Made by a program: the position numbers and the translations under genes
Assembly: GCF_964204645.1 (NCBI RefSeq)
Contig: NC_134030.1
Location: 22,201,210 to 22,265,209, forward strand
Source of the DNA: Tubulanus polymorphus
Taxonomy: Eukaryota; Nemertea; Palaeonemertea; Tubulaniformes; Tubulanidae
DNA length: 64,000 bases
Direction: 5' to 3'
In this document: positions 20,749-57,350 of the stretch, one piece after another
Position numbering within the stretch: the stretch's first letter is position 1
Layout of the letters: every line of letters starts with the position of its first letter
Notes under the pieces: model-generated
What the model was told of the DNA's origin: nothing
The model's input: the letters and a program-made list of their open reading frames with translations, nothing else
The model's database searches: none

Positions 20749-20751
20749 CAC

Positions 20752-22830: not shown

Positions 22831-23255
22831 CAAACATCCAGTCATCCAGTCACAGTATACTTTTTCAGTGTGTACAGTCGGTTGGTTTTCGAATCATATC
22901 AAAATTGAGAACCGAATCACTGATGTTCTAACTCTCTCATAACCACGTATCACTTAGACCGTGATGACAATAATCGAATGGGATTTAGAGATGTTCATGA
23001 TAAAGCACAATAGTACCACATCATAAAACTGATCAGAGTTGAAAACAGCGAGAGATTTTACGAGTAAATTTATCGTCGAATTATCCGTTCAATTATAGTT
23101 TCAGAGATATCTTTCTTCAGTTCAATTACAGTTAACTGATAGTTTAGAAAGTTTGAACGTGTCTTATCAGATTTTCCGGCGTAATTCATCGATTTGTAAG
23201 CAATATGCTAATTACATACAAATTACTAAGTGATAAGTCAGACAAATGTAAAGTG

Positions 23256-23263
23256 TATATAAA
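23256..23263 (+). promoter_or_regulatory. TATA box of peptide gene B
   Basis: TATATAAA in the same conserved context as at 15999; the UTR exon donor is at 23335. Confidence 0.65.
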
Positions 23264-23344
23264 CACCAGTGAAATCCTAGTGAAACCGAATTGAAACATT
23301 TCAAGACAAACGACATAAAAACTCTTCTATCAAGGTAAGTGTCT

Positions 23345-23770
23345 CTATCTCTCTCTCTCTCCGTCACCTCTCTCTCCTCTCTCCATCACCATCACCTCTC
23401 TCTCCTCTCCATCAACTCTCCTCTCTCCATCACCTCTCTCTCCTCTCTCCATCACCTCTCTCTCCTCTTTCCATGACCTCTCTCTCCTCTCTTCATGACC
23501 TCTCTCTCCTCTCTCCATCACCTCTTTCCATCACCTCTCTCTCCTCTCTCCATCACCTCTTTCCATCACCTCTCTCTCCTCTTTCCATGACCTCTCTCTC
23601 CTCTCTTCATGACCTCTCTCTCCTCTCTCCATCACCTCTTTCCATCACCTCTCTCTCCTCTCCATCGCCATCAACTCTGTCTCCTCTCTCCATCAACTCT
23701 CTCTCCTCTCTCCATCACCTCTCCTCTCTCTCTCTCCTCTCCATCACCTCTCTCCCTCTCTTTCCCCCTG
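23345..23770 (+). repeat. CT-rich microsatellite in intron 1 of peptide gene B
   Basis: CTCTCTCCTCTCTCCATCAC-type repeats, longer than in copy A. Confidence 0.9.
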
Positions 23771-23856
23771 TCTTTCTGTCTATAACAGGCCCATTATCTC
23801 GAAAAAAATTTGTTGTCAATGTCAATAATACATGTTTTGTTCCTAAATTATTTCAG

Positions 23857-25181: not shown

Positions 25182-25550
25182 GCTACCGGCAGCTAGTTAG
25201 AACAGATTACTCGAAATTTATTGTCTCTACAACAAAACTTGTGAAAATAAACAAAATTTACGATCCATGAAACTAACATCAATATTGTTCAGTATAAAGC
25301 GGCATGTTGCATTCACCGATGATCGAACGAAGCTACAATATGTGGGTTCGAATCCCACTAGCTGTGCTCGTACAGCCAGGGTCAAATTCGGTTTTCGGAT
25401 TTAGTGACTAGTGGTCGGAACCAATAACTGAATGCGCTCAATTTTCGATTTCCGGAATATAGTTCCGACTTCAACTTACAACATTCGGTTTCACTAAGTT
25501 CGGCTGGTCGACTAACTCAGATAACCGAAGTTGGCCCAGGGCGACCAGAA

Positions 25551-26543
25551 CTATCCGCCATGTTTACCAGCTGAGCCCACGCAGCTTAAAGCGCCAGCTC
25601 TGACATCGTTACGGAATGAACTGCTGCATATGAATATGAAAGCGTTGATCCAGTGATTGATGCTGGCGACGTAGAATGCAGCCCATTCTCCCAAATTTAA
25701 AAACTTCGCGTAATTCTGATAAACACAGCTCGTCAAATAGAACATGTACGTTTCCACAAGACTTCCTTTCTCGAACATCAGGAGATAGATGAGGCCTTTT
25801 AGAAACGACAAGAAGAAAAAAGCGACCGATGTAGAAACGACTAAAACTGTGATCTTTTTCGCGGCTGCCTTTTTCTTATCGTCTGCGCCCTGTTGGTTTG
25901 ACATATTCGCCGAGCCGCGAACCCCGTATATGATCGCCCCGTTAGCGATGGCCATCACGAATATCGGTAGATATATATCCATGATATTGTTGTAATGGAA
26001 ATACCACAAGTAGACAGTGTCGTAAGGTATGAGACAGTTTGTGACCGTTCCGTCCATGATGTCCCGTCCTTCGTGTAGCGCCGACCAGACGAGTTGGATT
26101 ATGATCAGTACAGCACTCGTAACGGCTATCGCTCGCTTAGCTCTACCTACAGTGCACAGAGTGGCCGCTTGAAGAGGTTTAGAAACGGCTACAGCGCGAT
26201 CAACCGTCATCAGAACCAGGATCCAAACAGCTATCTGTTTCGGGCAGATAGTATGAAACACTTTGATGATACAACCAGCGCGATTCGATTTGATATGGTA
26301 CAAGTCAATCAAATGCGTTACCGAAATACAGACCATCGCGTACAAGTCAGCCCCGCCCAGAAATAACATGTAGAAATGACCGGCACTGGACGACGCTTTT
26401 TTGTACGTCCCGAAAGCGATCAGAACCAAACCGATCAAACTCAATATCGGGAACGAATAATCTAAGGCGTACATCAATGGATCCAGGTAATGAGTCATCC
26501 AACTCAGGTCTAACATTGGACATCTTGCAGTACTGTTTGCCAT
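25551..26543 (-). CDS. Class A (rhodopsin-like) G-protein-coupled receptor, 330 aa
   Basis: A single coding exon. Seven hydrophobic segments at about 29-48, 56-80, 91-120, 137-155, 185-209, 231-257 and 285-311. Cys91 at the top of TM3 and Cys170 in loop 2 give the conserved disulfide. The DRY motif is Asp-Arg-Ala (115-117); the NPxxY motif is degenerate (Asn-Ala-Phe-Ile-Phe, 300-304). N-terminal NST is an N-glycosylation site. The third loop carries KKKAAAKK; the tail is short. An acceptor (ATTAAACAG) lies six bases before the ATG on the minus strand, so a 5' UTR intron is likely. It belongs with the divergent peptide-receptor-like GPCRs expanded in lophotrochozoans; the ligand is unknown. 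The neighbouring peptide precursor is a candidate by position only. Confidence 0.85.
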   Translation of the reverse strand: MANSTARCPMLDLSWMTHYLDPLMYALDYSFPILSLIGLVLIAFGTYKKASSSAGHFYMLFLGGADLYAMVCISVTHLIDLYHIKSNRAGCIIKVFHTICPKQIAVWILVLMTVDRAVAVSKPLQAATLCTVGRAKRAIAVTSAVLIIIQLVWSALHEGRDIMDGTVTNCLIPYDTVYLWYFHYNNIMDIYLPIFVMAIANGAIIYGVRGSANMSNQQGADDKKKAAAKKITVLVVSTSVAFFFLSFLKGLIYLLMFEKGSLVETYMFYLTSCVYQNYAKFLNLGEWAAFYVASINHWINAFIFICSSSFRNDVRAGALSCVGSAGKHGG

Positions 26544-26617
26544 TTCGACCTGTTTAATGAGAAAGCGAGGGATTTTAAATTCAACTGCGATTTGTCAACT
26601 TTCTACCATTACATAAA

Positions 26618-26838
26618 TACGGTAGATTCCACATAGCTGTCAAAGGTAGATTCCACATAGCTGTCAAAGGTAGATTCCACATAGCTGTCAAAAGGTGGAT
26701 TCCACATAGCTGTCAAAGGTGGATTCCACTTAGCTGTCAAAGGTGGATTCCACTTAGCTGTCAAAGGTGGATTCCACTTAGCTGTCAAAGGTGGATTCCA
26801 CTTAGCTGTCAAAGGTGGATTCCACATAGCTGTCATAG
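26618..26838 (-). repeat. 23-24-bp minisatellite upstream of GPCR
   Basis: About nine copies of GGTGGATTCCACWTAGCTGT + CAAA just upstream of the GPCR start, related to the larger array that follows. Confidence 0.9.
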
Positions 26839-26939
26839 CTAATTGTTGTAATTGTTATAGATTTTGATTTTGTTTTTTTTTGTTGCTCAAAGCAATTGTA
26901 TTTTGTCGAGCAATAAAACATATTTTATATTCTATTCTA

Positions 26940-28825
26940 TGTGATAGATGGATTCCACAGCAGTGATAGATTGATTCCACAGCAGTGATAGATTGATTCC
27001 ACAGCAGTGATAGATTGATTCCACAGCAGTCATAGATTGATTCCACATAGCTGTGATAGATTGATTCCGCATAGCTGTGATAGAGAGGTGGATTCCACAT
27101 AGCCGTGATAGAGAGGTGGATTCCACATAGCTGTGATAGAGAGGTGGATTCCACATAGCTGTGATAGAGAGGTGGATTCCACATAGCTGTGATAGAGAGG
27201 TGGATTCCACATAGCTGTGATAGAGAGGTGGATTCCACATAGCTGTGATAGAGAGGTGGATTCCACATAGCTGTGATAGAGAGGTGGATTCCACATAGCC
27301 GTGATAGAGAGGTGGATTCCACATAGCCGTGATAGAGAGGTGGATTCCATATAGCTGTGATAGAGAGGTGGATTCCACATAGCTGTGATAGAGAGGTGGA
27401 TTCCACATAGCTGTGATAGAGAGGTGGATTCCACATAGCCGTGATAGAGAGGTGGATTCCACATAGCTGTGATAGAGAGGTGGATTCCACATAGCTGTGA
27501 TAGAGAGGTGGATTCCACATAGCTGTGATAGAGAGGTGGATTCCACATAGCTGTGATAGAGAGGTGGATTCCACATAGCTGTGATAGAGAGGTGGATTCA
27601 ACATAGCTGTGATAGAGAGGTGGATTCCACATAGCTGTGATAGAGAGGTGGATTCCACATAGCTGTGATAGAGAGGTGGATTCCACATAGCTGTGATAGA
27701 GAGGTGGATTCCACATAGCTGTGATAGATTGATTCCACATAGCTGTGATAGAGAGGTGGATTCCACATAGCTGTGATAGAGAGGTGGATTCCACATAGCT
27801 GTGATAGAGAGGTGGATTCCACATAGCCGTGATAGAGAGGTGGATTCAACATAGCTGTGATAGAGAGGTGGATTCCACATAGCTGTGATAGATTGATTCC
27901 ACATAGCTGTGATAGAGAGGTGGATTCCACATAGCTGTGATAGAGAGGTGGCTTCCACATAGCTGTGATAGAGAGGTGGATTCCACATAGCTGTGATAGA
28001 GAGGTGGATTCCACATAGCTGTGATAGAGAGGTGGATTCCACATAGCTGTGATAGAGAGGTGGATTCCACATAGCTGTGATAGATTGATTCCACATAGCT
28101 GTGATAGAGAGGTGGATTCCACATAGCTGTGATAGAGAGGTGGATTCCACATAGCCGTGATAGAGAGGTGGATTCAACATAGCTGTGATAGAGAGGTGGA
28201 TTCCACATAGCTGTGATAGAGAGGTGGATTCCACATAGCTGTGATAGAGAGGTGGATTCCACATAGCTGTGATAGATTGATTCCACATAGCTGTGATAGA
28301 GAGGTGGATTCCACATAGCTGTGATAGAGAGGTGGATTCCACATAGCTGTGATAGAGAGGTGGATTCCACATAGCCGTGATAGAGAGGTGGATTCAACAT
28401 AGCTGTGATAGAGAGGTGGATTCCACATAGCTGTGATAGAGAGGTGGATTCCACATAGCTGTGATAGAGAGGTGGATTCCACATAGCTGTGATAGAGAGG
28501 TGGATTCCACATAGCCGTGATAGAGAGGTGGATTCCACATAGCTGTCAAAGGTGGATTCCACATAGCTGTCAAAGGTAGATTCCACATAGCCGTGATAGA
28601 GAGGTGGATTCCACATAGCTGTCAAAGGTGGATTCCACATAGCTGTCAAAGGTAGATTCCACATAGCCGTGATAGAGAGGTGGATTCCACATAGCTGTCA
28701 AAGGTGGATTCCACATAGCTGTCAAAGGTAGATTCCACATAGCTGTGATAGAGAGGTGGATTCCACATAGCTGTGATAGAGAGGTGGATTCCACATAGCT
28801 GTGATAGAGAGGTGGATTCCCTGTT
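26940..28825 (-). repeat. 28-bp minisatellite, about 67 copies
   Basis: Unit GGTGGATTCCACATAGCTGT + GATAGAGA, with interspersed shorter variants (GATAGATTGATTCC) that recur at regular spacing, showing a higher-order repeat. Three units make 84 bases, so long frames appear on the minus strand; they are composed only of the repeat and are not called as genes. Confidence 0.95.
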
Positions 28826-32023: not shown

Positions 32024-35000
32024 CTAAGGATACGTCGTCTTCTTCAAGGCTTCAGGATTCATGTATTGATCTGTGTCTGTATCTCCACCGGCGCTAGGAG
32101 TTGTCACGTCTATCGCGCCTTCAGTGCTCCTGTACGTGTCCTCTTCTATCCCAGGTCCCATATCCATATAAGGAGTTGTATCTTTGCCCTTACCGGCTTC
32201 CATAGCCATGTGAGGAGCTGTATCGTTTTCATTCTCGGCTCTCATGGCTTTATGACTTTGTTGTAATCCAGTTACAGTATTTCTCAAAAGTTTTCTTTTT
32301 GAAACATTCTCGGGATTTCTGTCGTCGTCCGGGTCTTCGTAGATGTTCAACTCGTCATCTGTTGTTTCAAGCTGTTGCGGTTGTTTTGAAGTGTCCACAT
32401 GACCTTCACCGGTTTCAAGCTGTTGCGGTTGTGTTGAAGTATCTACATGACCTTCACCGGACGAACGTCGTCTGCATCTGAAATGTGTAATTTATGCAGC
32501 ATTTTTTACAGTTAATTTCAACGTATTTCGAAAAGGTTGTGAACTGCAAAATAACAGAAATCTAGTACCGATTTTGCACTATTCCACAATTGGTGCCAAA
32601 CGTACAACCAAACATTTTAAGGACAAATGGTATTACGTTGAGTGCTCTCTTTTAAGCTCTGATTTTCATAAAAGTCTTGACACAGACACATAAGATCTCT
32701 TCGCAAAAACTGGTTGTGCACAGTAGGTTCGAGTCCCGATCTCGCGATCCCGGCATTTATTTTTAAAAGTAAACATCGTTAACTGTTTAAATTAACCCAC
32801 CGGTCGGTTTGATTTTTATCATCATCCAGACTTACTGGCAGCAAACTCACTGATCTGGCACTCTGTATTATAACATGTTTAATTTTTTTCATCTTCAACT
32901 TACAACGAATTCGATGTTGTATTTAGATAATGTCGATGGCGATAGAAGGAGATTGACTTAGATCTAGCTGAAGTTTAGTCAAAACTTCGAAACCGTCAAA
33001 ATATCAACTGTGGGTTTTCCCATCAACACCGAGTTCATACCGGGAGGGGGGGAGGGTATGTCGAGTTCATACCTGCGAATAGTGATAACAGCGATAGCAA
33101 CGATCAAAAAGGATCCAGCCGCTCCACCGACGATGTATGAGGGGTCCGATGTAGTCTGAAAGATGTAACAATGATGAAATTACTATCACGAACGACCATT
33201 TAATCGCATATTTGTTACTGCGATCATCAACAATATTCAACCCGTAATGATTTAAAACGTGGTATCCTATATGAAAATAGCTTATACTGTGTTTAATTCA
33301 CGACAGATTTAGACGTGGATCAAGAGTGTTCCAAATCGCATAAGGGCACTCAATATTACGGGCTGCTTTATCCTTCACCGAGTGTCTGATGTTAGACTAA
33401 GATCGTAGAGCGACGGGGATTTTTGTGGAGGCAACCACTGCCAGAGAACTGTATCCATGCCTCACGAGCGCGGTAGCCACTGACATGGCTTTTGGGCACC
33501 TCCTTCGGAAATGTAGGTAGGAATTAAAGACAATTTTAGGCCATGCAAAATAAAAACAAACAACTGAATAAATTGACATCCAGCTCGACTATCTATACAA
33601 TAAAACAACTAGATATTCACCTTTGGTGGATCAGTATTTGCTTTGTCTGAAACCAAAAGTGAAAAAGAAATTCAGGCTTCGATCTCTGAACCTCACGTCT
33701 AACAGTTGACAATTCTACCACTATTAGTTCGATTATAGGGACCTGAACAGAGCCGTAAAGGCTGTGACATCACTAGGACGTTCGGGCCAGTTGAAAAAAA
33801 GTTTATTATGACATGTGGTAATTGAAATAGAAATAGTCATATTAAAACAGTCCTTGTTTTATATCTGATGATGGAAAATGATGTTTGTTTTGTGTTTTAC
33901 GCTTTTATGGTTGTTCAACTACCGCAACTTTCTACTGAAGATTTATATATACATATATTTACATTACGATTTTATTTTACACTCCAACCATTTCCATTGA
34001 GGAAAACATTATACATCGACACTAGTTCCCCCTAGCGGAGAACTAGTGTCGATATTATATTCTAACTCTTACTCCTACCTGTTTCGCTATTTTCCACGAC
34101 AGTGCTGCCATCTTTACCGATTTTAAAGGTAAATTCTCTTTCCATGCTGCGGGTTTCTGCGCCATGTTTCCACGTGAATTTCACCATAACTGCCACTTCT
34201 CCCGCCATATTTGTCGGAAACGTCAAATTTAAACTCATTTGATCGTTAACAGCTTCGCTCGCGACATTTCCGTCGCTGATGAATCGATTGTTAGCTTTAA
34301 AACGATGGGCAACATTGAACACGATTCCAGGTTGTTGCGCGGTCCATTTCACCACTCGACCTTCAACTCGCCAGTTCTTGAAATATTGACCAGTATCATC
34401 TGAAAACATAAACAAATCAGCACTCCTAGCGGTCATTCGAGAACTATATATTCAGAATAATAATCATGTACAAACCTTTGTTTTCGATGTCTATATTAAA
34501 GTTATCAGTGCATTTATACGTGCAGGTTTTATCGGGGATCTGAATAGACCACGTGTTTCCGGTTAGTCTAGTAGCATGCATTGCGTCATCGTCACCACAT
34601 TTACACGTGACAGTTGTTTGTACATTGTAATTGTATATCATATGAACAGTCGTGTCGTTTACTCGACTCCAGCTCCCAGCCGCACCTAGAAACATTATAC
34701 ACTTAAACATGCTTAATCGTGTTAATGACGTCATAGGGGGATCTATAAACTGCTCTCCCGCTTTTTACACTTACCAGTAGGGTCCGCCGGTGTAGTTTTA
34801 GGTTTGGGAATAACTGTTACTCTTAAATTTTCTTTCGATTTCTTGAGGTTCGTACGAGAGACGCATCTGAACTGTGAGTTGTTGAGTGTCATATCGCCAC
34901 GGATTGTTAATTGTTTCTCGGATGAATAAAGTTTCCACTGATCATCATTTTCTAATAGATAATCCCAGTGTATTCTCCCTTTATCGTATTTACACATGTA

Positions 35001-36868
35001 AGTTTTTGATTCTCCTTCATTCAATTTCACCTCATAATTCATTAAATCATTCCCCGATGCATTAACTATCACTGGAAAACCGTCTGTAAATAAACATATT
35101 CTGATTATGTCAATCGTTCAGTTACTGGTTTTATATTTCAACCTAAGTAATGATGATAAAAATCTTTCAATTTGTATGAAAAAATTGTTCATAGTAAAAA
35201 CTGCATCATGGTTACAAAAATCACAATGTGTTTAAATTTGTTCAGATCAATTTTCCGATCGAAGAGTTCCACAAAAACGTGGAGACAATAAATCGGATGC
35301 AACGTCCGCCTTATGTTTTAATAACGATTGGGAATTTTAACCTAATTTTAACTGAATATTAATTGAGTAAGTCTCCCGGGTTTAAGTTAATACCACCCCT
35401 GGGGGTATAAACAGAGCGGTAATTCACCACACAAAGAATTTTAGTATCCACGCTATGTTTGGGCCCCAAACATTAAATGATCTGGCAGATTGTGTTTAAA
35501 CTCATCTCTCTGTCTCTCTACCTTCGCTCCGTCTAGTAATGTGTATCTCTTCTTCGATGATCTCCGGGATAACGAGGGCATTGTGGAGCCGTGACGTCAG
35601 ATATCTGGACTTCATTCGCGGTGGTTTCACAACTAAATATAAAAAACAGTTTTCCAGAAAAAAAATCGTTAAAAATCGATTATTAGAAAACGCGACGCTC
35701 TCCTTAGAATTTGAAACTAATGTTCTCTTATTTCTAGTCGATTGAGATTGGAAAATTAAACAACATTATTCTAAATTGTGGACGCCTTAGAATTACTAGA
35801 TCATCAGAAACCATCGGAATCTATCCTATTTGAGTTTAGGGAAGGGTATAAGACCCTCTAGAAGTATGAAAACCCGTCATTTTTTGAAAATATTCTTTTT
35901 GAAATTAAGTTAGCACGATCTGAAATTAAGAAAGTTAGCACGTAAAGAGTTAAAAACACTCGTTTATGAAAAGACGTCTGTAAGACAAGCTGGCCTCTGC
36001 TGTGAGAGAATAATGTTTACAGCTTAATATCGGATTGACAATATCAGCTGATATTATTCATATCTGATACGTGAGACTCGTGGAACTTCCTTTTCATATT
36101 TATTGGTTTAGTCGCATACCAGGGACGGTGTCGTCCATTAAAATGACGTGTTTGTTGGAGAGGTTAAGATATTTTTTTTATGTTTTTCTCTACGTTCGGT
36201 TGGTTTATATTTTACAGAAAGCCGTATCAACATCGTGATTTAGGGTCCCGCTATAGTACAGAACGAAATACGAAGCAAAATGTAACGAAATGGTGATATT
36301 TCAAATACGACCGCACTTCAGTCCAAAGCTAGTTATAACACCAGCCACGGGACTGCGGTGGAAGGAATGTGGCGGTTTTAACGAAACGTCGAGCGTGAGA
36401 ATTTACGGTGTAATATTCTCACTCCCTGTTGCGCGGACGTAGGCCTACTGTAGAAATATATATAGAATATGGGAAAAACCGGGACTGCCCAAGCGATGGC
36501 ACCGAACACTCCGAAAAGACTAGCAAAAAACCCGAACAATAACATCCCAAAATCCACACCAAAAAAGAGTTGAACGTTTTATCAAGATAGCAAATTAGAA
36601 AAGGCAAGATTTTAGTGACCTGTGATACTGAACTCCCCTAATCGCTTAAAGATAATATTAGCCTTTGGGAGGGTACATCGGTTGCCTGACAGGGGTGGGA
36701 AAAAGGGGACCCCTCAACGGATCGCAAATCCGATAGAAACATAATTACTAAGACGAGTAATGACAGCCGCAGTTACTTACTTATAGCTCCAGATGTTTCT
36801 GTAGTGTATAAATCCCCCAGTAGAAATAAAACCGTGCAGATTATTAAGAACAAACTTGTCCTCGTCAT
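32024..36868 (-). CDS. Ig-type single-pass receptor 1, 496 aa, seven exons
   Basis: Exons (minus): 36781-36868, 34775-35083, 34476-34685, 34079-34399, 33621-33646, 33073-33155, 32024-32477. All are GT-AG and in frame. Order: signal peptide ([17 protein letters not shown]...), Ig-like domain 1 (TYMCKYD...IHWDY...FRCVS), a Cys-rich Ig-like domain 2 (CKC...CTYKC), a Cys-free beta-rich domain 3, a short DKANTDPPK stalk, one transmembrane helix (YIVGGAAG...VITI), an Arg-rich stop-transfer (RCRRRSS), then a tail with two [18 protein letters not shown] repeats and tyrosine motifs NIYEDP, PYMDMG, DTYRSTE and [11 protein letters not shown] after KKTTYP removes the terminal [11 protein letters not shown] segment present in the two paralogues. 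Extracellular exons 2-4 are phase 1-1 as in Ig-superfamily genes. No specific family is recognised; a cell-surface immune, adhesion or allorecognition receptor is inferred. Confidence 0.8.
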
Positions 36869-36869
36869 C

Positions 36870-37363
<494 letters not shown>

Positions 37364-37364
<1 letters not shown>

Positions 37365-37500
37365 CAAACTTGACTGTCCTACAAGTCAATATTCATAGTC
37401 TTACGTGTAAATTACAAGAATTAATAATCGATAATCTAGCGAAGCAAATAATAGTTCTAGATATCATCATGATCTGTGAAACCTTCATAAATGACAAAAT
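37364..37500 (+). mobile_element. LINE endonuclease-domain fragment, unit 1
   Basis: Translates to an APE-endonuclease N terminus ([18 protein letters not shown], then VLDIIMICETFINDK), typical of non-LTR retrotransposon ORF2. It is truncated at both ends. The same fragment ends unit 2 at 43646-43795. Confidence 0.65.
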
Positions 37501-37579
37501 GCTTCATTATGCCTTTATTTCATTATCAATACCAGTACATCCATCGTAGTTTGAAAAGTTCATTTCCATTTAGAAAATA

Positions 37580-37745
37580 CCCCCAGTGAAATTCATTACT
37601 TGTTCCTTATTCCGTTACTTAATGAGAATTCATCTCCCAATAAGGAACAAGTAACAAGTAACTTGTTCCTTGTTCCTTATTGGGAGATGAATTCTAAATA
37701 ATTAACGGAATAAGGAATAAGGAACAAGTAATGAATTTCACTGGG
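37580..37745. mobile_element. Foldback element, unit 2
   Basis: Same palindrome as at 30493, with an extra AACAAGTAACAAGT insertion at the centre. Confidence 0.7.
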
Positions 37746-39086
37746 TATTGGAAAATTACGTTTTCGACGACACAAAACGTTGTTCCCAAAAGAAGCGGTG
37801 AAGTTTCGGAAAACACGTTTTTCTGTTCGGCGTTTTGTTTTCTGACTCCAACAGACACGGCAAAACAAAACACATCACAAAAGTTTTTCACCAAGAAAAA
37901 ACGTCTAATTCGTCTGTGGGCTGGCCGCACCATCCTGTGCCCACCATCGGACTCTGGACACAGTATCATGTCTAACTGGTATTAATCGATCTTTGCTCTA
38001 TAAACTGCGGGTCTCTACTAAGAAATCAATCCATTATTCACCAAAAATAGTTATTGTAATATGTTAACTTACAAAACGTCGCTGAAAAAATCTTTAATTC
38101 TGAAATAATACCAACAAAGCTGCAGAATATAGTTATAGAATATTCTTTTATTTAGTCTTTCACTCGGAGCGTGAAGTAAAAATACCGATCTCTTTACAAA
38201 TATCGCCTATATTTAAAACGTCGGACCTTAACTAAATCCTTGGTTATTTATATATTTCTAAAATGTATTTCTATCGGTAAGGTCATTGTGCTGCTCCTGT
38301 GAACATCATATAATTGTAGTGCAAACATTCTAAAAGGTGTTACGTGTTTGCGACAAGTTGAGAATCAATAATTCAATAATTTATCAGCTTCATCTTCGTC
38401 GTTGTGTCGATTGTGATGTTCACGGTGTTGTTCCCTCACTAGAGGTTATATTCCTTTGACAAATCTATTCACAAACTGTCCTAAAATTACGAATCCTATC
38501 TGATCTTTTCAAAACAATCCTTATCTCATAACTCCCTTTTCTCTAAAAATCCCACGATTACTTACAAAAAAGAATCTAGTTATTTGCTATAAATGACTTA
38601 AGCTTGTACAAAAAAATCTAATTAACCTACATATTACTATTTGTCTTCGCGCTTACTCATTAAAGTAAAACAATTTTAGAGGTTTAAGACCTATTAAGTT
38701 AAGAATCCTGATCAATTCAAAATAATCCTTATACATAGTTTAGTGCCGATTGCGATGTTATGGGCGTTTTCCCAGCACTAGGTCTATATACCTAATACAA
38801 TTAAACCTATTTACAAACCATCCTAAAGTTGAGAATCCTATCTTATCTATTCCTAATTAACTCAATAATCATTACGAGATTTCGCCCGAAAGCTCGTTAT
38901 ACTTACAAAAAACAAACTTACTCATTAAACTAACAATTTAAAAGGTTAAATCTGTGCAGATAAACATTTTCTATTTACGGTTTGAATACAATTCTTCCAT
39001 ATCTATTAAGGATTTGTGTCTTTGCCCTTCGCGGCTTTCATATCCATATATGGAGTTGTATATTGCACAGAAGCATACGAATAAAG

Positions 39087-42000
39087 TTAATTATCATCCT
39101 CCAGAGGTTCATCGGTATCTTCCACCAACTGAAGATACGTCGTCTTCTTCAAAGCTTCAGGATTCATGTATTGATCTGTGTCTGTATCTCCACGGGCGCT
39201 AGGAGTTGTCACGTCTATCGGGCCTTCAGTGCTCATGTATGTATCCTCTTCTATCCCAGGTCCCATATCCATATAAGGAGTTGTATATTTGCCCTTACCG
39301 GCTTCCATAGCCATGTGAGGAGTTGTATCGTTTTCCTTCTCGGCTCTCATGGCTTTATGACTTTGTTGTAATCCAGTATTTCTCAAAAGTTTTCTTTTTG
39401 AAACATTCTCGGGATTTCTGTCGTCCGGGTCTTCGTAGATGTTCAACTCGTCATTTGTTGTTTCAAGCTGTTGCTGTGCTGTTGAAGTGTCCACATGACC
39501 TTCACCGGTTTCAAGCTGTTGCGGTTGTGTTGAAGTATCCACATGACCTTCACCGGACGAACGTCGTCTGCATCTGAAATGTGTAATTTATGCAGCATTT
39601 TTTACAGTTAATTTCAACGTATTTCGAAAAGGTTGTGAACTGCAAAATAACAGAAATCTAGTACCGATTTTGCACTATTCCACAATTGGTGCCAAACGTA
39701 CAACCAAACATTTTAAGGACAAATGGTATTACGTTGATTGCTCTCTTTTAAGCTCTGATTTTCATTTAAGTCTTGACACAGACACATATGACTCTCTTCG
39801 CAAAACTGGTTGTGCACAGTAGGTTCGAGTCCCGATCTCGCGATCCCGGCATTTATTTTTAAAAGTAAACATCGTTAACTGTTTAAATTAACCCACCGGT
39901 CGGTTTGATTTTTATAATCATCCAGACTTACTGGCAGCAAACTCACTGATCTGGCACTCTGTATAATAACATGTTTAATTTTTTCATCTTCAACTTACAA
40001 CGAATTCAATGTTGTATTTAAATATATATCGATGGCGATAGAAGGAGATTGACTTAGATCTAGCTGAAGTTTAGTCAAGACTTCGAAACCGTCAAAGTAT
40101 AACAACTTTGGGTGTTTCCTATTAACACGGGGGGGGGGGGTATGTCGAGTTCATACCGGGAGGTGGGGGAGGTTATGTCGAGTTCATACCTGCGAATAGT
40201 GATAACAGCGATGAGAACGATCAAAATGAATCCAGTCGCTCCATTCGTGATGTAGAGTACTGTAATGGTCCAGTGATTGGGGTCTGATGTAGTCTGAAAG
40301 ATATAATAATGATGGAATTGCCATCGCGAACGACCATTTAATCGCATATTTGTTACAGTGATCATCAACAATATTCAACCCGTAATGATTTAAAACGTGG
40401 TATCCTATATGTAAATACCAAACTGCGTTTAAAATCGCTACGGGTTCAGGCGTGGATGGAGGGTCCTATCTCGAGGGAGCTCCATGCCTCACGAGCGCGA
40501 TAGCTATTGAGGGGGTGTGGGGACCTTCCCCGCCAAATGGTAACGATTAAAGATTTGGGCCATTCTGGTCGATTTTGGAGGCTTGAAAGCTTAAAAACAC
40601 TGGACATTGTTGTAAAATTCTAACCCAAGACTGAGAAGAAAGGGACTTTTTTCCAAGTGATAGGATAATGAAGTTTTCACGGATATCTCCCAAAGTAAGA
40701 TTCTATACTAAACTTGTAATACATGTTATGCAAAATACAAAACAAATGAATTGAAATTAAATTTCAAATTGCTTTTATGGTAAATATCGCATTGTCATTG
40801 ACAAGAAAGTCTGTATACAATGCGCAGTATACAATATAAACTTGAAATGCATGTAATGCAAAATAAAGACAAACAACTGAATAAATTGACATCCAGCTCG
40901 ACTATCTATAGAATAAAACAACTAGATATTCACCTTTGGTGGATCAGTATTTGCTTTGTCTGAAAGGAAAAATGGAAAAGAAATTCAGGCTTCGATCTCT
41001 GAACCTCACGTCTAACAGTTGACAATTCTACCACTATTAGTTCGATTATAGGGACCTGAACAGAGCAGTAAAGGCTGTGACATCACAGCCTTTCAGAATA
41101 ATAATCATGTACAAACCTTTGTTTTCGATGTCTATATTAAAGTCACCAGTGCATTCATACGTGCAGGTTTTATCATCGGGGATCTGAATAGACCACGTGT
41201 TTCCGGTAAGTCTAATAGCATGTATTGCGTCATCGTCACCACATTTACACGTGACAGTTGTTTTCACATCGTAATTGTATATCATATGAACAGTCGTGTC
41301 GTTTACTCGACTCCAGCTCCCAGCCGCTCCTAGAAACATGATACACTTAAACATGCTTAATCGTGTTAATGACGTCATTGGGGGATCTATAAACTTCTCT
41401 CCCGCTTTTTACACTTACCAGTAGGGTTAGCCGGTGTAGTTTTAGGTTTGGGAATAACTGTTACTTTTAAAACATTTACTGACGTTTTCAGGGAATGTCC
41501 GATACTGGAGAAACATCTGAACTGTAAGTTGTTGAGTGTCATATGTCCACGGATTGTTAATCGTTTCCCGTATGAATAATATTTCCACTCATCATCATTT
41601 TCTAATCGCTTTTCCCACACTATTCTCCCTGTATCGTGTTTACACGTGTAAGTTTTTGATTCTCCTTCATTCAATTTCACCTCATTATTCATTAAATCAT
41701 TCCCCGCTGCATCAACTATCACTGGGAGACCGTCTGTAAATAAACATATTCTGATTATGTCAATCATTCAGTTACTGGTTTTATATTTCAACTTAAGTAA
41801 TGATGATAAAAATCTTTAAATTTGTATAAAAAACTTGTTCATAGTAAAAACTGCATCATGGTTACAAAAATCACAATGTGTTTAAATTAGTTAAATTAAG
41901 TTAGCACGATCTGAAATTAAGAAAGTTAGCACGTAAGGAGTTAAAAACACTCGTTTATGAAAAGACGTCTGTAAGACAAGCTGACCTCTGCTGTGAGAGA

Positions 42001-42851
42001 ATATTGTTTACAGCTTAATATCGGTTTGAAAATATCAGCTGATATTATTCATATCTGATACGTGAGACTCGTGGAACTTCCTTTTCACATTTATTGGTTT
42101 AGTCGCATACCAGGGACGGTGTCGTCCATTAAAATGACGTGTTTTTTGGAGAGGTTAAGATATTTTTTCATGTTTTTCTCTACGTTCGGTTGGTTCATAT
42201 TTTACAGAAATCCGTATCAACATCGTGATTTAGGGTCCCGCTAAAGTACAGAACGAAATACGAAGCAAAATGTAACGAAATGGTGATATTTCAAACACGA
42301 CCGCACTTCAGTCCAAAGCTCGTTATAACACCAGCCACGGGACTGCGGTGGAAGGAATGTGGCGGTTTTAACGAAACGTCGAGCGTGAGAATTTACGGTG
42401 TAATATTCTCACTCCCTGTTGCGCGGACGTAGGCCTACTGTAGAAATATATATAGAATATGGGAAAAACCGGGACTGCCCAAGCGATGGCACCGAACACT
42501 CCGAAAAGACAAACCCGAACAATAACATCCCAAAATCCACACAAAAAAAGAGTTGAACGTTTTATCAAGATAGCAAATTAGAAAAGGCAAGATTTTAGTG
42601 ACCTGTGATACTGAACTCCCCTAATCGCTTAAAGATAATATAAGCCTTTGGGAGGGTACATCGGTTACCTGACAGGGGTGGGAAAAAGGGGACCCCTAAA
42701 CGGATCGCAAATCCGATAGAAACATAATTACTAAGACAAGTAATGACAGCCGCAGTTACTTACTTATAGCTCCAGATGTTTCTGTAGTGTATAAATCCCC
42801 CAGTAGAAATAAAACCGTGCAGATTATTAAGAACAAACTTGTCCTCGTCAT
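39087..42851 (-). CDS. Ig-type single-pass receptor 2, 410 aa, lacks domain 3
   Basis: Exons (minus): 42764-42851, 41419-41733, 41117-41329, 40934-40959, 40190-40293, 39087-39573. Signal peptide as in receptor 1; Ig domain 1 (TYTCKHD...IVWEK...FRCFS), Ig domain 2 (CKC...CTYEC), then directly the DKANTDPPK stalk. Exon 4 of the paralogues is deleted; because that exon is 321 bases and phase 1-1, the frame survives and the receptor simply loses its membrane-proximal domain. The transmembrane exon is longer and different at its start ([18 protein letters not shown]...). The tail keeps NIYEDP, PYMDMG, DTYMSTE, DQYMNPE and the terminal [13 protein letters not shown]. It looks functional. Confidence 0.8.
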
Positions 42852-42934
42852 CGTGATATCGAAAGGATTGATTCACATCTAAAAAATAATCGCTCTGATT
42901 GAGGAAGTGATATACATATACAGATACATATACC

Positions 42935-43225
<291 letters not shown>

Positions 43226-43645
43226 CACTAATATTGTAACAATTCAACTTCAAATAGTCAGATATTTTATATCACACGATTTTTGCGATTTTCCTTTTTG
43301 ATATGTAAAGTGTAAAGTGCGCCATCATTTAAGGAAAGCTTTAACGGAAACAAATCTTCCGCAGAAAGGAATTAATTACTCATTATATATTGTTAGCTAA
43401 GTTTAGCTATTGTTGTCTCGGAGACACTCTGGTGCTATTATGCTGCAAGTAGTTGACACCGTGTCATTTTTCTCCTGTATTATGTGTCTCGGTAATGCAG
43501 ATTTAAAAAACAAATTTGTTGGTCATGCGAATGATCAAGATTTATACTTAATAAGTATAATAGATGATTAACAGTCATTTGATAATGAACGATGTCCCTA
43601 TGTTGAACTTAATGAACTTGGTAGCAAATTTAAGATTAATCCATC

Positions 43646-43795
43646 AAACTTGACTGTCCTACAAGTCAATATTCATAGTCTTACGTGTAAATTACAAGAA
43701 CTGAAATTAATGATCGATAATTTAGCGAAGCAAATTATAGTTCTAGATATCATCATGATCTGTGAAACCTTCATAAATGACAAAAATGCTTTATT
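43646..43795 (+). mobile_element. LINE endonuclease-domain fragment, unit 2
   Basis: Same APE-type fragment as at 37364 (SLTCKLQELKLMIDNLAKQ...), at the junction between units 2 and 3. Confidence 0.65.
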
Positions 43796-43796
43796 A

Positions 43797-46700
43797 TGCC
43801 TTTATTTCATTATCAATACCAGTACATCCATCGTAGTTTGAAAAGTTCATTTTCATTTAGAAAATACCCCCAGTGAAGTTCATTACTTGTTCCTTATTCC
43901 GTTACTTAATGAGAATTCATCTCCCAATAACTTGTTCCTTGTTCCTTATTGGGAGATGAATTCTCAATAATTAACGGAATAAGGAATAAGGAACAAGTAA
44001 TGAACTTCACTGGGTATTGGAAAATTACGTTTTCGACGACACAAAACGTTGTTCCCAAAAGAAGCGGTGAAGTTTCGGAAAACACGTTTTTCTGTTCGGC
44101 GTTTTGTTTTCTGACTCCAACAGACACGGCAAAACAAAACACATCACAAAAGTTTTTCACCAAGAAAAAACGTCTAATTCGTCTGTGGGCTGGCCGCACC
44201 ATCCTGTGCCCACCATCGGACTCTGGACACAGTATCATGTCTAACTGGTATTAATCGATCTTTGCTCTATAAACTGCGGGTCTCTACTAAGAAATCAATC
44301 CATTATTCACCAAAAATAGTTATTGTAATATGTTAACTTACAAAACGTCGCTGAAAAAATCTTTAATTCTGAAATAATACCAACAAAGCTGCAGAATATA
44401 GTTATAGAATATTCTTTTATTTAGTCTTTCACTCGGAGCGTGAAGTAAAAATACCGATCTCTTTACAAATATCGCCTATATTTAAAACGTCGGACCTTAA
44501 CTAAATCCTTGGTTATTTATATATTTCTAAAATGTATTTCTATCGGTAAGGTCATTGTGCTGCTCCTGTGAACATCATATAATTGTAGTGCAAACATTCT
44601 AAAAGGTGTTACGTGTTTGCGACAAGTTGAGAATCAATAATTCAATAATTTATCAGCTTCATCTTCGTCGTTGTGTCGATTGTGATGTTCACGGTGTTGT
44701 TCCAGCACTAGAGGTTTATATTCCTATGACAAATCTATTCACAAACTGTCCTAAAATTACGAATCCTATCTGATCTTTTCAAAACAATCCTTATCTCATA
44801 ACTCCCTTTTCTCTAAAAATCTCACGAGTACTTACAAAAAAGAATCTAGTTATTTGCTATAAATGACTTAAGCTTGTACAAAAAAAATCTAATTAACCTA
44901 CATATTACTATTTGTCTTCGCGCTTACTCATTAAAGTAAAACAATTTTAGAGGTTTAAGACCTATTAAGTTAAGAATCCTGATCAATTCAAAATAATCTT
45001 TATACATAGTTTAGTGCCGATTGCGATGTTATGGGTGTTTTCCCAGCACTAGGTTTATATACCTAATACAATTAAACCTATTTACAAACCATCCTAAAGT
45101 TGAGAATCCTATCTTATCTATTCCTAATTAACTCAATAATCATTACGAGATTTCACCCGAAAGCTCGTTATATTTACAAAAAAACAAAAACAAAAAATAA
45201 AATCTATTTGAATAAAAACCCACACATTACTATTTGTCTTCGCACAATTAAATCTAACAATTTAAAAGGTTAAATCTGTGCAGATTAACATTTTCTGTTT
45301 ACGGTTTGAATACAATTCTTCCAAATCTATTAAGGATTTGTGTCTTTGCCCTTCCCGGCTTTCATATCCATATATGGAGTTGTATATTGCACAGAAGCAT
45401 ACGAATAAAGTTAATTATCATCTTCCACAGGTTCATCGGTATCTTCCACCAACTGAAGATACGTCGTCTTCTTCAAAGCTTCAGGATTCATGTATTGATC
45501 TGTGTCTGTGCCTCCACCGGCGCTAGGAGTTGTCACGTCTATCGGGCCTTCAGTGCTCATGTATGTATCCTCTTCTATCCCAGGTCCCATATCCATATAA
45601 GGAGTTGTATCTTTGCCCTTACCGGCTTCCATAGCCATGTGAGGAGTTGTATCGTTTTCCTTCTCGGCTCTCATGGCTTTATGACTTTGTTGTAATCCAG
45701 TATTTCTCAAAAGTTTTCTTTTTGAAACATTCTCGGGATTTCTGTCGTCGTCCGGGTCTTTGTAGATGTTCAACTCGTCATTTGTTGTTTCAAGTTGTTG
45801 CTGTGCTGTTGAAGTGTCCACATGACCTTCACCGGTTTCAAGCTGTTGCGGTTGTGTTGAAGTATCCACGTGACCTTCACCGGACGAACATCGTCTGCAT
45901 CTGAAATGTGTAATTTATGCAGCATTTTTTACAGTTAATTTCAACGTATTTCGAGAAGGTTGTGAACTGCAAAATAACAGAAATCTAGTACCGATTTTGC
46001 ACAATCCCAAAATTGATGCTAAACGTACAACCAAACATTTTAATGACAAATGGTATTACGTTGAGTGCTCTCTTTTAAGCTCTGATTTTCGTAAAAGTCT
46101 TGACACAGACACATAAGACTCTCATAGCAAAAACTGGTTTTGCACAGTAGGTTCGAGTCCCGATCTCGCGATCCCGGCATTTATTTTTAAAAGTAAACAT
46201 CGTTAACTGTTTAAATTAACCCACCGGTCGGTTTGATTTTTATCATCATCCAGACTTACTGACTTTTCATCTTCAACTTACAACGAATTCGATGTTGTAT
46301 TTAAATATATATCGATGGCGATAGAAGGAGATTGACTTAGATCTAGCTGAAGTTTAGTCAACACTTCGAAACCGTCAAAGTATAACAACTGTGGGTTTTT
46401 CCTATCAACACGGGGGGGGGGGGTATGTCGAGTTCATACCGGGAGGTGGGGGTGGGGGAGGGTATGTCGAGTTCATACCTGCAAATAGTAATAACAGCGA
46501 TAGCAACGATCAAAAAGTATCCAGCCGCTCCACCAACGATGTATGAGAATATGAGGCCGATAACAATCCAGTGATTGGGGTCTGATGTAGCCTGAAAGAT
46601 ATAACAATGATTAAATTACTATCACGAACGACCATTTAATCGCATATTTGTTACTGCGATCATCAACAATATTCAACCCGTAATGATTTAAAACGTGGTA

Positions 46701-49380
46701 TCCTATATGCAAATAGCTTATACTGTGTTTAAATCACGACAGGTTTAGACGTGGATCAAGAGTGTTCCAAATCGCATAAGGGCACTCAATATTACGGGCT
46801 GCTTTATCCTTCACCGAGTGTCTGATGTTAGACTAAGATCGTAGAGCGACGGGGATTTTTGTGGAGGCAACCACTGCCAGAGCTTGGTGAACTGTATCCA
46901 TGCCTCACGAGCGCGGTAGCCACTGACAGGGGTTTTGGGGACCTCCTTCGGAAAATGTAGGTAGGAATTAAAGACAATTTTAGGCCATGCAAAATAAAAA
47001 CAAACAACTGAATAAATTGACATCAAACTCGACTATCTATACAATAAAACAGCCAGATACTCACCTTTGGTGGATCAGTATTTGCTTTGTCTGAAACGAA
47101 AAATGAAAAAGAAATTCAGGCTTCGATCTCTGAACCTCACGTCTAACAGTTGACAATTCTACCACTATTAGTTCGATTATAGGGACCTGAACAGAGCCGT
47201 AAAGGCTGTGACATCACTAGGACGTTCGGGCCCCTTGAAAAAATGTTTATTATGACATGTGGTGATTGAAATAGAAATAGTCATATTAAAACAGTCCTGG
47301 TTTATACCTGATGATGGAAAATGATGCTAAAATTTGTGTTTTACGCTTTTATGGTTGTTCAACTACCGCAACTTTTAACTGTTAGTAGATAGGTACTAGT
47401 TCCCCCTAGCGGCCAGTATTCTAACTCTTACTCCTACCTGTTTCGCCATTTTCCACGACAGTGCTGCCATCTTTACCGATTTTAAAGGTAAACTCTTTTT
47501 CCATGCTGCGGGTTGTTGCGCCATGTTTCCACGTGAATTTCACAATAACTGCCACTTTTCCGGTCAAATTTGTCGGAAACGTCAAATTTAAACTCATTTG
47601 ATCGTTAACAGCTTCGCTCGCGACATTTCCGTCGCTGAGGAATCGATTGTTAGCTTTAAAACGATGGGCAACATTAAACACGATTCCAGGTTGTTGCGCG
47701 GTCCATTTCACCACTCGACCTTCAACTCGCCAGTTCTTGAAATATTGACCAGTATCATCTGAAAACATAAACAAATCAGCACTCCTAGCGGCCATTCGAG
47801 AACTATATATTCAGAATAATTATCATGTACAAACCTTTGTTTTCGATGTCTATATTAAAGTTATCAGTGCATTTATACGTGCAGGTTTTATCATCGGGGA
47901 TCTGAATAGACCACGTGTTTCCGGTTAGTCTAATAGCATGTATTGCGTCATCGTCACCACATTTACACGTGACAGTTGTTTTCACATCGTAATTGTATAT
48001 CATATGAACAGTCGTGTCGTTTACTCGCTTCCAGCTCCGAGCCTTACCTAAAAACATTATACACTTAAACATGCTTAATCGTGTTGATGACGTCATAGGG
48101 GGATCTATAAACTGCTAGCTCCCGCTTTTTACACTTACCAGTAGGGTCACCCGGTGTAGTTTTAGTTTTGGGAATAACTGTTACTTTTAAAACATTTGCT
48201 GACGTTTTCACGGAGTTTCCGTCGATACTGGAGTAACATCTGAACTGTGAGTTGTTGAGTGTCATATTTCCACGGATTGTTAATCGTTTCCCGTATGAAT
48301 AATGTTTCCACTCATCATTTTCTAATCGCTTTTCCCAGTTTATTCTCCCTTTATCGTGTTTACACGTGTAAGTTTTTGATTCTCCTTCATTCAATTTCAC
48401 CTCATAATTCATTAAATCATTCCCCGCTGCATCAACTATCACTGGGAGACCGTCTGTAAATAAACATATTCTGATTATGTCAATCATTCAGTTACTGGTT
48501 TTATATTTCAACTTAAGTAATGATGATAGAAATCTTTAAAATTGTATGAAAAAATTGTTCATAGTAAAAGCTGTATCATGGTTACAAAAATCACGTTAGT
48601 TCCAATCAATTTTCCGAAGAGTTCCACAAAAACGTGGAGACAATAAATTGGATGCAACGTCCGCCTTAAATGTTTTAATAACGATTGGGAATTTTAACCT
48701 AATTCTAACTGAATACTAATTGAGTAAATCTCCCGGGTTTTAGTTAATCCCACCCCTAGGGGTATAAACAGAGCGGTAATTCACCACACAAAGAATTTTA
48801 GTATCCACGCTTTATTCGGGCCCCAAAACATTAAATGATCGAGCAGGTCGTCTTTAAACTCATCTCTCTGTCTCTCTACCTTCGCTCCGTCTAGTAATGT
48901 GTATCTCTTCTTCGATGATCTCCGGGATAACGAGGGCATTGTGGAGCCGTGACGTCAGATATCTGGACTTCATTCGCGGTGGTTTCACAACTAAGAAAAT
49001 AAAAAACAGTTTTCTAGAAAAAGTCCATAAAAATCGATTATTAGAAAACGCGACGCTCTCCTTAGAATTTGAAACTAATGTTCTCTGATTTCTAGTCGAT
49101 TGAGATTGGAAAATTAAACAACATTATTCTAAATTGTGGACGCCTTAGAATTACTAGATCATCAGAAACCATCGGAATCATCCTATCTGAGTTTAGGGAA
49201 GGGTATTAGACCCTCTAGAAGTATGAAAACCCGTCATTTTTTGAAAATTCTTTAAAAAAGAATTAAGTTAGCACGATCTGAAATTAAGAAAGTTAGCACG
49301 TAAGGAGTTAAAAACACTCGTTTATGAAAAGACGTCTGTAAGACAAGCTGGCCTCTGCTGTGAGAGAATAATGTTTACAT
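43797..49380. repeat. Ig-receptor tandem unit 3
   Basis: Homology with unit 1 runs to about 49380, then breaks. Exon 1 of receptor 3 (50888-50984) lies beyond, in a homologous but isolated patch at about 50800-51030, so foreign DNA occupies intron 1. Confidence 0.8.
43867..44014. mobile_element. Foldback element, unit 3
   Basis: Same palindrome as at 30493 and 37580. Confidence 0.7.
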
Positions 49381-50984
49381 TTCATCATCCAAGCATTGTA
49401 AGACTCGATAATGAAAAGACGACTATTAGAACAGCCGGTCGCTGAACTCGAATCGTCTCTAGAAATATGTTTTAGAATTTGTAGTAAATCTGTGATTGAC
49501 GGAATGGAATATAAGAGAATCCTTTAATAAATCAGTAAATGTTACGCAACGCATGTTTCTAGGATTTCGGGTCTTTCAGGGAGTTCAAACACCAGTCTTC
49601 CGCTAACTAAACGTGTCCCGTGCTCGGTGGAAGCCACAGTAGTGAAACTATAGCAAAAGATAAGCAGTATTGGTGAGGAGAGAAGAATCTATTGCCTTAA
49701 CTAGAGGATTTTTGCACTTAATAAAGTTATAAGTCATTGGAGGAGATATGGCGATATATTTTCAGAGTTTATCACGGGCCCCCTATTTGTTTCAAATGAC
49801 AAAATAGACTTTGGATATTTCTAACAGCTAGCTAAGTGCAAGATAAATCATCACGAATAAATACAGTAATCTCCGCTAATCGCGTCATTAGTTTGCCCGC
49901 ATTCTTGACACATAATCAGCGGATAAATCGAGGAAGTATTTACTTAAAACCGTATCAATATATTTCTTGAATTATGAAAATTCCAAAATCGTTCACAATG
50001 ATTTTGCCCCATATCTACTGATGACGGAGCCCATTCACCGAATCTGTCAAATAAACACCACTTCTGGAGTTTCCCTTTGGCATGGTCCCCTTAGGGCCAA
50101 AGGAAAAAGTAAATCCATAGATTCAATCGAGATCACCCCTTACATTTGAAATATTGCGGTTTTTCAATATGACCACCATCGTCATTACTGATGATGGCTG
50201 TTTATCAACAGCCGAAACGTTGTGGTTTCAAAATGATAAATTCTATCAGTACAATTTAGAAGTTTGAGATTTCTTCAATTATCGTAATTACTGCTTCACC
50301 CAGCCCTGATACTGGTTGTTTCTAGGGATATCTCTGAAGCTCTACGATCCTGTGTAACCATCAGATTCTTGGTGAAAATTACTGCACGAATATCACATTT
50401 TCAAGCCCAATTTTGCAACCACGTAACGTAGGCTTGTAAAACCATTGTCTTTACCAACTAAATCACAGTCAAACTACCATATAAAATTGTTGTTATTCAA
50501 TATACGTTGGTTGTTTTTAATGTGACCGCCGCTGCTATTACTGTAAATCAAATTTTAGTCTCGCATGCCCTTATTGGCAACTACTGTCTGTCACACCTGC
50601 TCTTCGTGCGACGTTTTGGTCCGTTATTTCGTTAATAATTACGTTTGCGGTCAAATCAGCGAGTCAGACCTCCGAGCGATTATCTAACTTAGATTAGATA
50701 ATTGCTCGTAGGAGTCAGACAGACTCTCCGCCATAGTTTGTAAATCTTCTGATTATCTTTTGTCAGTAACATTTAATAGGGCCTGTGACAAATCTCTACG
50801 GCACTGACTCTGACGTCATCGGTTGAATTCGCAATTCCGATAGAAATATAATTACTAAGGCGAGTAACGGAGGCCGCAGTAACTTACTTATTTCATTCGT
50901 ATTAGCTCCAGATGTTTCTGCAATGTACAAGTATCCCAATAGTAAAACTGTGCAGATTATTAAGAACAAACTTGTCTTCGTCAT
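45411..50984 (-). CDS. Ig-type single-pass receptor 3, 524 aa, seven exons
   Basis: Exons (minus): 50888-50984, 48139-48453, 47835-48047, 47438-47758, 47065-47090, 46479-46591, 45411-45900. Signal peptide [17 protein letters not shown]..., with a longer first exon (ETSGANTNEI). Ig domain 1 (TYTCKHD...INWEK...FRCYS), Ig domain 2, domain 3 ([16 protein letters not shown]...), stalk, transmembrane helix at about 333-360, then cytoplasmic RCRRC. Tail tyrosines: Y408 (NIYKDP), Y463 (PYMDM), Y475 (DTYMSTE), Y498 (QYMNP) and Y509 (TTYLQL). This is the most complete of the three. YxxM, YxN and TxYxxL are known SH2-docking patterns in other receptors; the partner is inference. Confidence 0.8.
49400..50780. 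other. Foreign DNA in intron 1 of receptor 3
   Basis: Not present in units 1 and 2. It holds TGATGATGGCTGTTTATCAA-CAGCCGAAACGTTGTGG at about 50187-50225, a signature seen at ends of Penelope-like elements, and a hairpin GAGCGATTATCTAA...TTAGATAATTGCTC at 50672-50708. No gene is seen. Confidence 0.45.
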
Positions 50985-56937: not shown

Positions 56938-57350
56938 AGATTCAATTCAATTCAAAGTTTATTGCTCAACAAACGACATTGCACAAAGCAGATAAATACG
57001 AAAAAAATAAAACAATACAGGAAAATGATAGGCTTAAGTGTACACAATTCGACAGTGAAAGAACATCATGATTAAGTTACTATAATGTTATTTAATACAA
57101 GGTCATGCCTTTTCTGATATAGCTAACTCGAGCAAACGCGTATTAACAGAGGAATTCAACAGTATTTGAAATCTTACTACACTAGGGTTCCTTATAGTAT
57201 TCTTTTATGTAGGTCTACCTAATATTTTCCAAAAAGGGCATACTAAGATGAAGTGGTATTCATCACAAACAACAGCCAGCTGGCATTTCGTGCACAGACT
57301 ATCCTCCCTTAGGAAGACGTTGTTTTTTATTCCTCTACAGAAACTAAGAT
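56938..57350 (-). mobile_element. LINE 3' end abutting the NLR gene
   Basis: On the minus strand it encodes FLREDSLCTKCQLAVVCDEY and then HFILVCPFW, the C-terminal zinc-knuckle region of LINE ORF2 proteins, with several in-frame stops, and ends GAGCAATAAACTTTGAATTG with a (TTGAA) tail. It starts within a few bases of the predicted NLR stop. Confidence 0.75.

Follow-up and report, generated by a model that had tools for sequence, protein, structure and literature searches.

What kind of receptor system is encoded by three tandem, paralogous genes on the minus strand of a 64,000-nucleotide stretch of DNA (C6:22201210-22265209, hereafter the window) within a 268 Mb genome of 77 contigs? The initial annotation of these genes, here termed A, B and C, described a tandem triplet of immunoglobulin (Ig) receptors with CD28/SLAM-like tyrosine tails. 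We show here that the three genes are real but not alone, at least 40 tail loci forming a complex, and that what defines the family is not a CD28/SLAM-like trio of motifs but YMDM sites arrayed in tandem. On the sequence data presented below, we consider it reasonably probable that the genes are part of a cell-surface receptor family, type I and Ig-like, that is specific to its lineage in what is probably a spiralian animal, and that this family would operate as a PI3K-coupled complex of paired receptors for innate recognition.

A genome-wide search for the gene C tail returned 107 matches, which were grouped by hand into at least 40 loci (30 on contig C6, eight on C9 and one each on C11 and C19); these counts are lower bounds, loci L029, L030, L032 and L035 having been excluded as duplicates of others. 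In the 34 tails that were read (all 40 except five C9 tails and one C6 fragment), the pattern Y[MIV][DN]M occurs 135 times and is present in every tail, against a mean of 0.36 in shuffled sequences. Individual tails contain from 1 to 19 YMDM-type sites, with the maximum of 19 in L033, and the array unit is a 14-residue repeat (42 bp) that combines a YMDM core with a linker and varies in copy number. Tails on two chromosomes are open across 301-682 residues, and further recurrent sites include Y[ED][ED][PL] (29/34 tails), YSYAxV (17/34), TxYxx[LIV] (11/34) and YMNP (10/34). In PDGF receptor beta and in Kit, p85 docks at YMDM, and we take it to be a p85 site here as well, with Y[ED][ED][PL] presumably a Src-type site, YMNP a Grb2 site, TxYxx[LIV] a site resembling the immunoreceptor tyrosine-based switch motif (ITSM), and YSYAxV a YxxV site. 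The iSH2 domain of PI3K p85 is itself encoded at one place in the genome, on C2, as two neighbouring exon matches. A separate observation concerns the 682-residue tail of L062 (C6:22784801-22787300), where PFMNM or PFMDM alternates with YMNV, YMNM or YMDM for a total of 10 YxxM and 13 YxN sites; such mixed units imply that arrays change in type too, and the Phe-for-Tyr units could possibly represent phospho-dead spacers combined with a switch of SH2 type.

Is the motif maintained as protein, or does it simply accompany a repeating stretch of DNA? Units selected by their core gave ratios of nonsynonymous to synonymous differences (pN/pS) of 0.065 for the core and 0.50 for the linker, a mode of selection that in itself biases toward core conservation. 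In the repeat test units were selected by the linker alone, with the consensus fixed after inspection of the units, and pN/pS was 0.28 in the core against 0.62 in the linker when all distinct pairs were compared; for units of the same tail the two values were 0.47 and 0.77. The tyrosine is kept in 111 of 129 distinct linker-selected units (the others carrying 10 Phe, 7 His and 1 Val), while its retained codons divide into 66 TAC and 45 TAT. Because core pN/pS lies below that of the linker and the tyrosine is kept despite the TAC/TAT split, the YMDM motif appears to be constrained as protein beyond the DNA repeat itself.

Within the window, YMDM and QYMNP are present in all three tails and TTYLQL only in B and C, gene A ending at TTYP before the TxYxxL site; the proposed tail set of YMDM, QYMNP and TTYLQL thus stands complete in two genes and without its last member in the third. 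YMDM and YMNP each occur three times in these tails, and 0 of 500 shuffles reach either count, while less strict patterns give little signal when only the window tails are considered (three YxxM, a count reached by 12 of 500 shuffles; three YxN, reached by 15 of 500; two TxYxx[LIV], reached by 12 of 500). In B and C the frame runs on past the stop codon to the next stop, through sequence that still codes for tail in other members of the family, and four of the seven window-branch tails, A included, carry an earlier TAG before the TxYxxL site. Taking these truncations as read, we interpret the window tails as truncated members of the larger family. The early TAG codons and the remnants beyond the stops, together with the variable copy number of the 42-bp repeats, are points in favor of a rival explanation in which the YMDM array is a passively expanding coding minisatellite whose motif number carries no signalling meaning, and of which some copies, the window triplet included, are decaying. 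Conservation of the YMDM core as protein, the synonymous freedom of its tyrosine codon and the long open tails on two chromosomes all speak against such passive expansion, which we consider quite improbable.

A second, related class of receptors lends the recognition complex its paired character. In the three of 29 loci that were read (L058-L060), an Ig exon is followed by an exon resembling domain 2 (D2) of the window genes, a helix and a short tail devoid of YMDM. The partner-class D2 is found at 29 genomic loci, a match on C5 with an expectation value (E) of 2.0 having been left out as chance, and 15 of these follow a long-tailed gene of the same strand, on its 3' side, at a distance of 5.4-9.1 kb. 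Among the 15 are every one of the 10 copies in a tandem array at C6:21.75-22.09 Mb and a single pair on C9. Four further partners are convergent with long-tailed genes at C6:20.43-20.52 Mb, at distances of 1.9-2.8 kb, and none of the 29 is followed on its own strand by a known tail in the next 8 kb. The Ig domains of long- and short-tailed receptors are about 50% identical, and two of the three partner helices read are without a charged residue, the other having an Arg at its outer edge. The long/short pair recurs on two chromosomes; related long- and short-tailed neighbours, the hallmark of paired receptors, are a property of the family but, within the window, not of the triplet itself. As a side observation, the four convergent partners at C6:20.43-20.52 Mb are diverged (D2 51-53% identical) and arranged tail-to-tail with their long-tailed neighbours.

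The triplet was also annotated as adjacent to an NLR gene, and this we can confirm about 6.4 kb 5' of gene C:
57344-60109, minus strand: NACHT (NLR-type) gene, single exon, 921 residues (Pfam NACHT, E 8.2e-17)

A genome-wide search gave 27 NACHT matches, seven of which fall within 50 kb of a family locus against 0.29 expected, and eight within 100 kb against 0.44 expected, under an expectation that assumes independent copies and is violated by tandem duplicates. With the window copy excluded, the counts are 6/26 and 7/26, respectively, and the remaining 19 matches are more distant or on other contigs. These data bear out the broader proposal of an invertebrate multigene family of Ig-like receptors with phosphotyrosine-type tails, linked to NACHT genes beyond chance. 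The same chromosome also carries a compact, ordered Hox cluster (C6:5318228-5634750, L089-L097, about 316 kb), with ten homeodomain matches on one strand at C6:5.318-5.634 Mb. Among nine homeodomains read, one has a Lox5-type C-terminal flank and two resemble Lox2/Lox4, so that the animal is probably a spiralian. Most spiralians are solitary, which we count, together with the Lox-type Hox genes and the survey of a single genome, against the alternative of a strict allorecognition complex governing self/non-self fusion, as in the Hydractinia allorecognition complex (ARC) or Botryllus fuhc. Although the linked Ig receptors, tyrosine-motif tails and short-tailed partners do resemble Botryllus FF/FcoR (PMC12065747), we regard this narrower role as having little probability.

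How, then, are the window genes themselves built? Gene A extends over 36868-32024, B over 42851-39087 and C over 50984-45411, with spliced open frames of 496, 410 and 524 residues and GT-AG at every border, in agreement with the annotation of three paralogues whose reading frames are intact across splice sites. The annotated seven-exon structure applies to A and C, B having six exons and no domain 3 (D3) exon:
50888..50984, minus strand: gene C exon 1, signal-peptide-like
48139..48453, minus strand: gene C exon 2, domain 1 (D1, Ig-like), eight loci genome-wide
47835..48047, minus strand: gene C exon 3, domain 2, short, Cys-containing, weakly resembling D2 of the partner receptors
47438..47758, minus strand: gene C exon 4, domain 3, free of cysteine and without a relative in the searches
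47065..47090, minus strand: gene C exon 5, stalk mini-exon
46479..46591, minus strand: gene C exon 6, transmembrane helix
45411..45900, minus strand: gene C exon 7, tail with YMDM, QYMNP and TTYLQL
45330..45410, minus strand: in-frame remnant past the gene C stop codon, matching sequence that still codes in tails elsewhere in the family
42764..42851, minus strand: gene B exon 1, signal-peptide-like
41419..41733, minus strand: gene B exon 2, domain 1
41117..41329, minus strand: gene B exon 3, domain 2
40934..40959, minus strand: gene B stalk mini-exon, D3 exon absent
40190..40293, minus strand: gene B transmembrane exon, within a diverged segment
39087..39573, minus strand: gene B tail exon with YMDM, QYMNP and TTYLQL
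36781..36868, minus strand: gene A exon 1, signal-peptide-like
34775..35083, minus strand: gene A exon 2, domain 1, more diverged than the flanking introns
34476..34685, minus strand: gene A exon 3, domain 2
34079..34399, minus strand: gene A exon 4, domain 3
33621..33646, minus strand: gene A stalk mini-exon
33073..33155, minus strand: gene A transmembrane exon
32024..32477, minus strand: gene A tail exon with YMDM and QYMNP, ending at TTYP

The D1, D2 and D3 exons are all of phase 1-1, so that loss of a domain leaves the frame intact, as in B. By hydropathy alone, each protein has a hydrophobic N-terminal segment and one further strong hydrophobic segment, which together with the spliced models fits the annotated order of signal peptide, two or three ectodomains, one helix and a long tail. 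The 3' flanks of the three genes are 98.0-98.5% identical, which points to a recent tandem triplication. Long TA dinucleotide arrays (36969-37183 and 42944-43219) begin about 100 bases upstream of the A and B start codons, and the surroundings of gene C contain no TA run reaching 30 bases. Elsewhere in the window lie a rhodopsin-type G protein-coupled receptor gene (25551-26594, Pfam 7tm_1, E 7.3e-19), a partial copy of its C-terminal part that is near-identical by eye (20327-20770), a ubiquitin carboxyl-terminal hydrolase (UCH)-like fragment slightly under the Pfam cut-off (6707-6997), and several long minisatellites (21616-28697), in which more than one reading frame is open for several hundred residues.

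The ectodomains joined to these tails are of more than one kind. Window-type exons are matched at few places in the genome (D1 eight, D2 eight, D3 seven), all on C6, while tail genes L054-L057 combine, by eye from frame lists, a similar signal-peptide-like exon with a single Ig-like exon of a different type. Tail gene L061 on C9, read in the same way, has two Ig-like exons of this second type, for which we find 66 matches across C6, C9 and C19. Of eight sequences scanned against Pfam, two gave matches to C2-set_2 (the better at E 0.0013) and one a match to ig (E 0.0038, 17.9 bits, under the cut-off of 21.8), and a separate Pfam scan gave no Ig match for D1 of gene A or for gene C. D1 retains an invariant Cys, Trp and Cys in eight sequences, the second type has two invariant Cys and an invariant Trp, likewise in eight, and profiles of the two align over this Cys-Trp-Cys core with a probability of 65.9; the ectodomains are thereby weakly supported as Ig-like. 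Pfam and PDB sequence searches gave nothing convincing for D2 or D3. Matches of the second-Ig-type profile to repeat-toxin chains in PDB (best whole-sequence E 1.6e-09) were rejected as summed chance similarity, since the single repeats have i-Evalues of 49 or worse in the two alignments. Near L053, at C6:18204454-18205054, window-type D3 and D2 exons on the minus strand adjoin a plus-strand gene copy, in what reads as an inverted partial duplicate.

The outer domain has also followed a course of its own. Comparison of A with B gives 46/309 differing positions in the D1 exon, 24/1030 in the preceding intron and 18/487 in the tail. For A-C and B-C the first introns align poorly (identity 0.679 and 0.477), and a nearby intron was used instead; by that measure A and C differ at 41/306 positions in D1 against 19/387. 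Synonymous divergence of D1 between A and B is 0.17, likewise above the intron, which argues that an older D1 lineage was probably exchanged into A, rather than selection alone having acted. Positive selection over the D1 exons was considered and is not significant (pooled pN/pS 1.28, bootstrap 0.84-2.19; D3 0.70). PI3K coupling is common among non-immune receptors, and pN/pS is 0.47 in each of two 10-copy Ig sets, both of which would suit a lineage-specific adhesion or neural-type set of the Ig superfamily (IgSF) whose tails recruit PI3K for developmental motility or survival and not for immunity. At least 40 tail loci, tandem arrays, NACHT linkage, long/short pairing and D1 exons that outpace introns in two of three pairs are instead typical of recognition families, and we judge the adhesion or neural alternative unlikely.

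Returning to the PI3K-coupled recognition complex, several observations weigh against it. Of the 29 partners, 10 are more than 15 kb from any tail locus, three of these sitting 15.7-16.4 kb 3' of one, and the window triplet has no partner gene within the window. The truncation of the window tails may reflect stepwise motif loss or decay. B and C show no excess of differences in D1 (16/312 against 5/89 in the nearby intron), and diversifying selection is suggested at most for the window branch. The Ig fold is an assignment drawn from marginal profile matches and the Cys-Trp-Cys pattern, and the immune role is argued from linkage and analogy.

With these points in mind, the recognition complex can be framed as a model where ligand binding would lead a Src-family kinase to phosphorylate the tail, upon which phosphorylated YMDM sites would recruit PI3K through the p85 encoded in this genome, YMNP a Grb2-type adaptor, and the TxYxxL or YATV sites further SH2 proteins. 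Array length, altered by gain and loss of repeats, would set PI3K output, and the short-tailed partners would be ligands, co-receptors or decoys. For the whole, the most likely function is innate recognition of haemocyte type, directed at non-self or altered self. We propose only tentatively the fuller scheme, in which paired Ig-like receptors are interleaved with NLR genes and the number of PI3K sites (1 to 19) in a coding minisatellite sets signal strength, unequal crossing-over tuning the output and exon exchange renewing the outer Ig domain. PI3K-array tails on unmatched ectodomains in a further invertebrate would argue that a signalling logic has been reinvented repeatedly, and the variable number of docking sites offers a natural dose series for how many PI3K sites a receptor needs.

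Does the family then belong to a known system? The CD28/SLAM-like kinship implied by the initial annotation did not hold, and relatedness to either was rejected, in that the Pfam and PDB sequence searches made here gave no profile or sequence link. A predicted YxxM PI3K-type site in the tail, as in CD28/ICOS, is present in 34/34 tails read, while the SLAM combination of a TxYxx[VI] ITSM with a V-C2 ectodomain was not found, TxYxx[LIV] occurring in 11/34 tails and with Leu in B and C. Clustered Ig receptors with tyrosine-motif tails are known in vertebrates, where KIR, LILR and PIR form clusters of long- and short-tailed Ig receptors and CD28/ICOS couple YxxM to PI3K; no sequence kinship of these with the present family was found, and they have one site per tail, against many here. 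The chicken BG genes are likewise clustered Ig receptors with repeats in the cytoplasmic tail, but their repeats are of heptad coiled-coil type and are not known as phosphotyrosine sites.

Tunicate and cnidarian cases of clustered Ig receptors with tyrosine-motif tails have also been described (PMC12065747, PMC11999971), and the nearest counterparts of the present family are Botryllus fester (FF)/FcoR, Hydractinia Alr and oyster CgIgIT2. Botryllus FF/FcoR offers a likeness in that a receptor without signalling motifs is linked to an Ig receptor whose long tail bears tyrosine motifs, but in the same account FcoR has a tail with immunoreceptor tyrosine-based inhibitory (ITIM) or half-activation (hemITAM) motifs and a sushi domain (PMC12065747), in contrast to YMDM arrays here; our Pfam scan of the proteins examined gave no sushi and no V-set match, and the FcoR combination of V-type Ig, sushi, two C2 Ig domains and ITIM/hemITAM tail was not found. 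Botryllus is, moreover, a tunicate, the present animal being spiralian-looking. Hydractinia Alr resembles the family as a cluster of 41 Ig-like genes (PMC11999971), and Alr candidate genes bear motifs of ITIM or activation (ITAM) type (PMC12065747), but Hydractinia is a cnidarian and arrays of PI3K sites are absent from the Alr description in the sections of these sources that we used (PMC11999971, PMC12065747); PDB sequence searches gave no Alr match, Alr sequences not having been compared directly. The oyster CgIgIT2, an IgSF receptor from a spiralian, has a tail of the tyrosine signalling kind; it is described with five Ig domains and an ITAM, and YMDM arrays do not figure in that description (PMC11999971). 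Among the titles and abstract openings listed in our literature searches, we found no description of tandem YMDM tails in an invertebrate receptor, which is weak evidence of absence given thin coverage of subscription journals. The best-supported comparison is accordingly one of working principle, in which the family would function like CD28-type PI3K coupling combined with paired receptors, membership in any named family being unsupported; as such, it would add a further invertebrate case of clustered Ig receptors with tyrosine tails, on ectodomains that match no known family.

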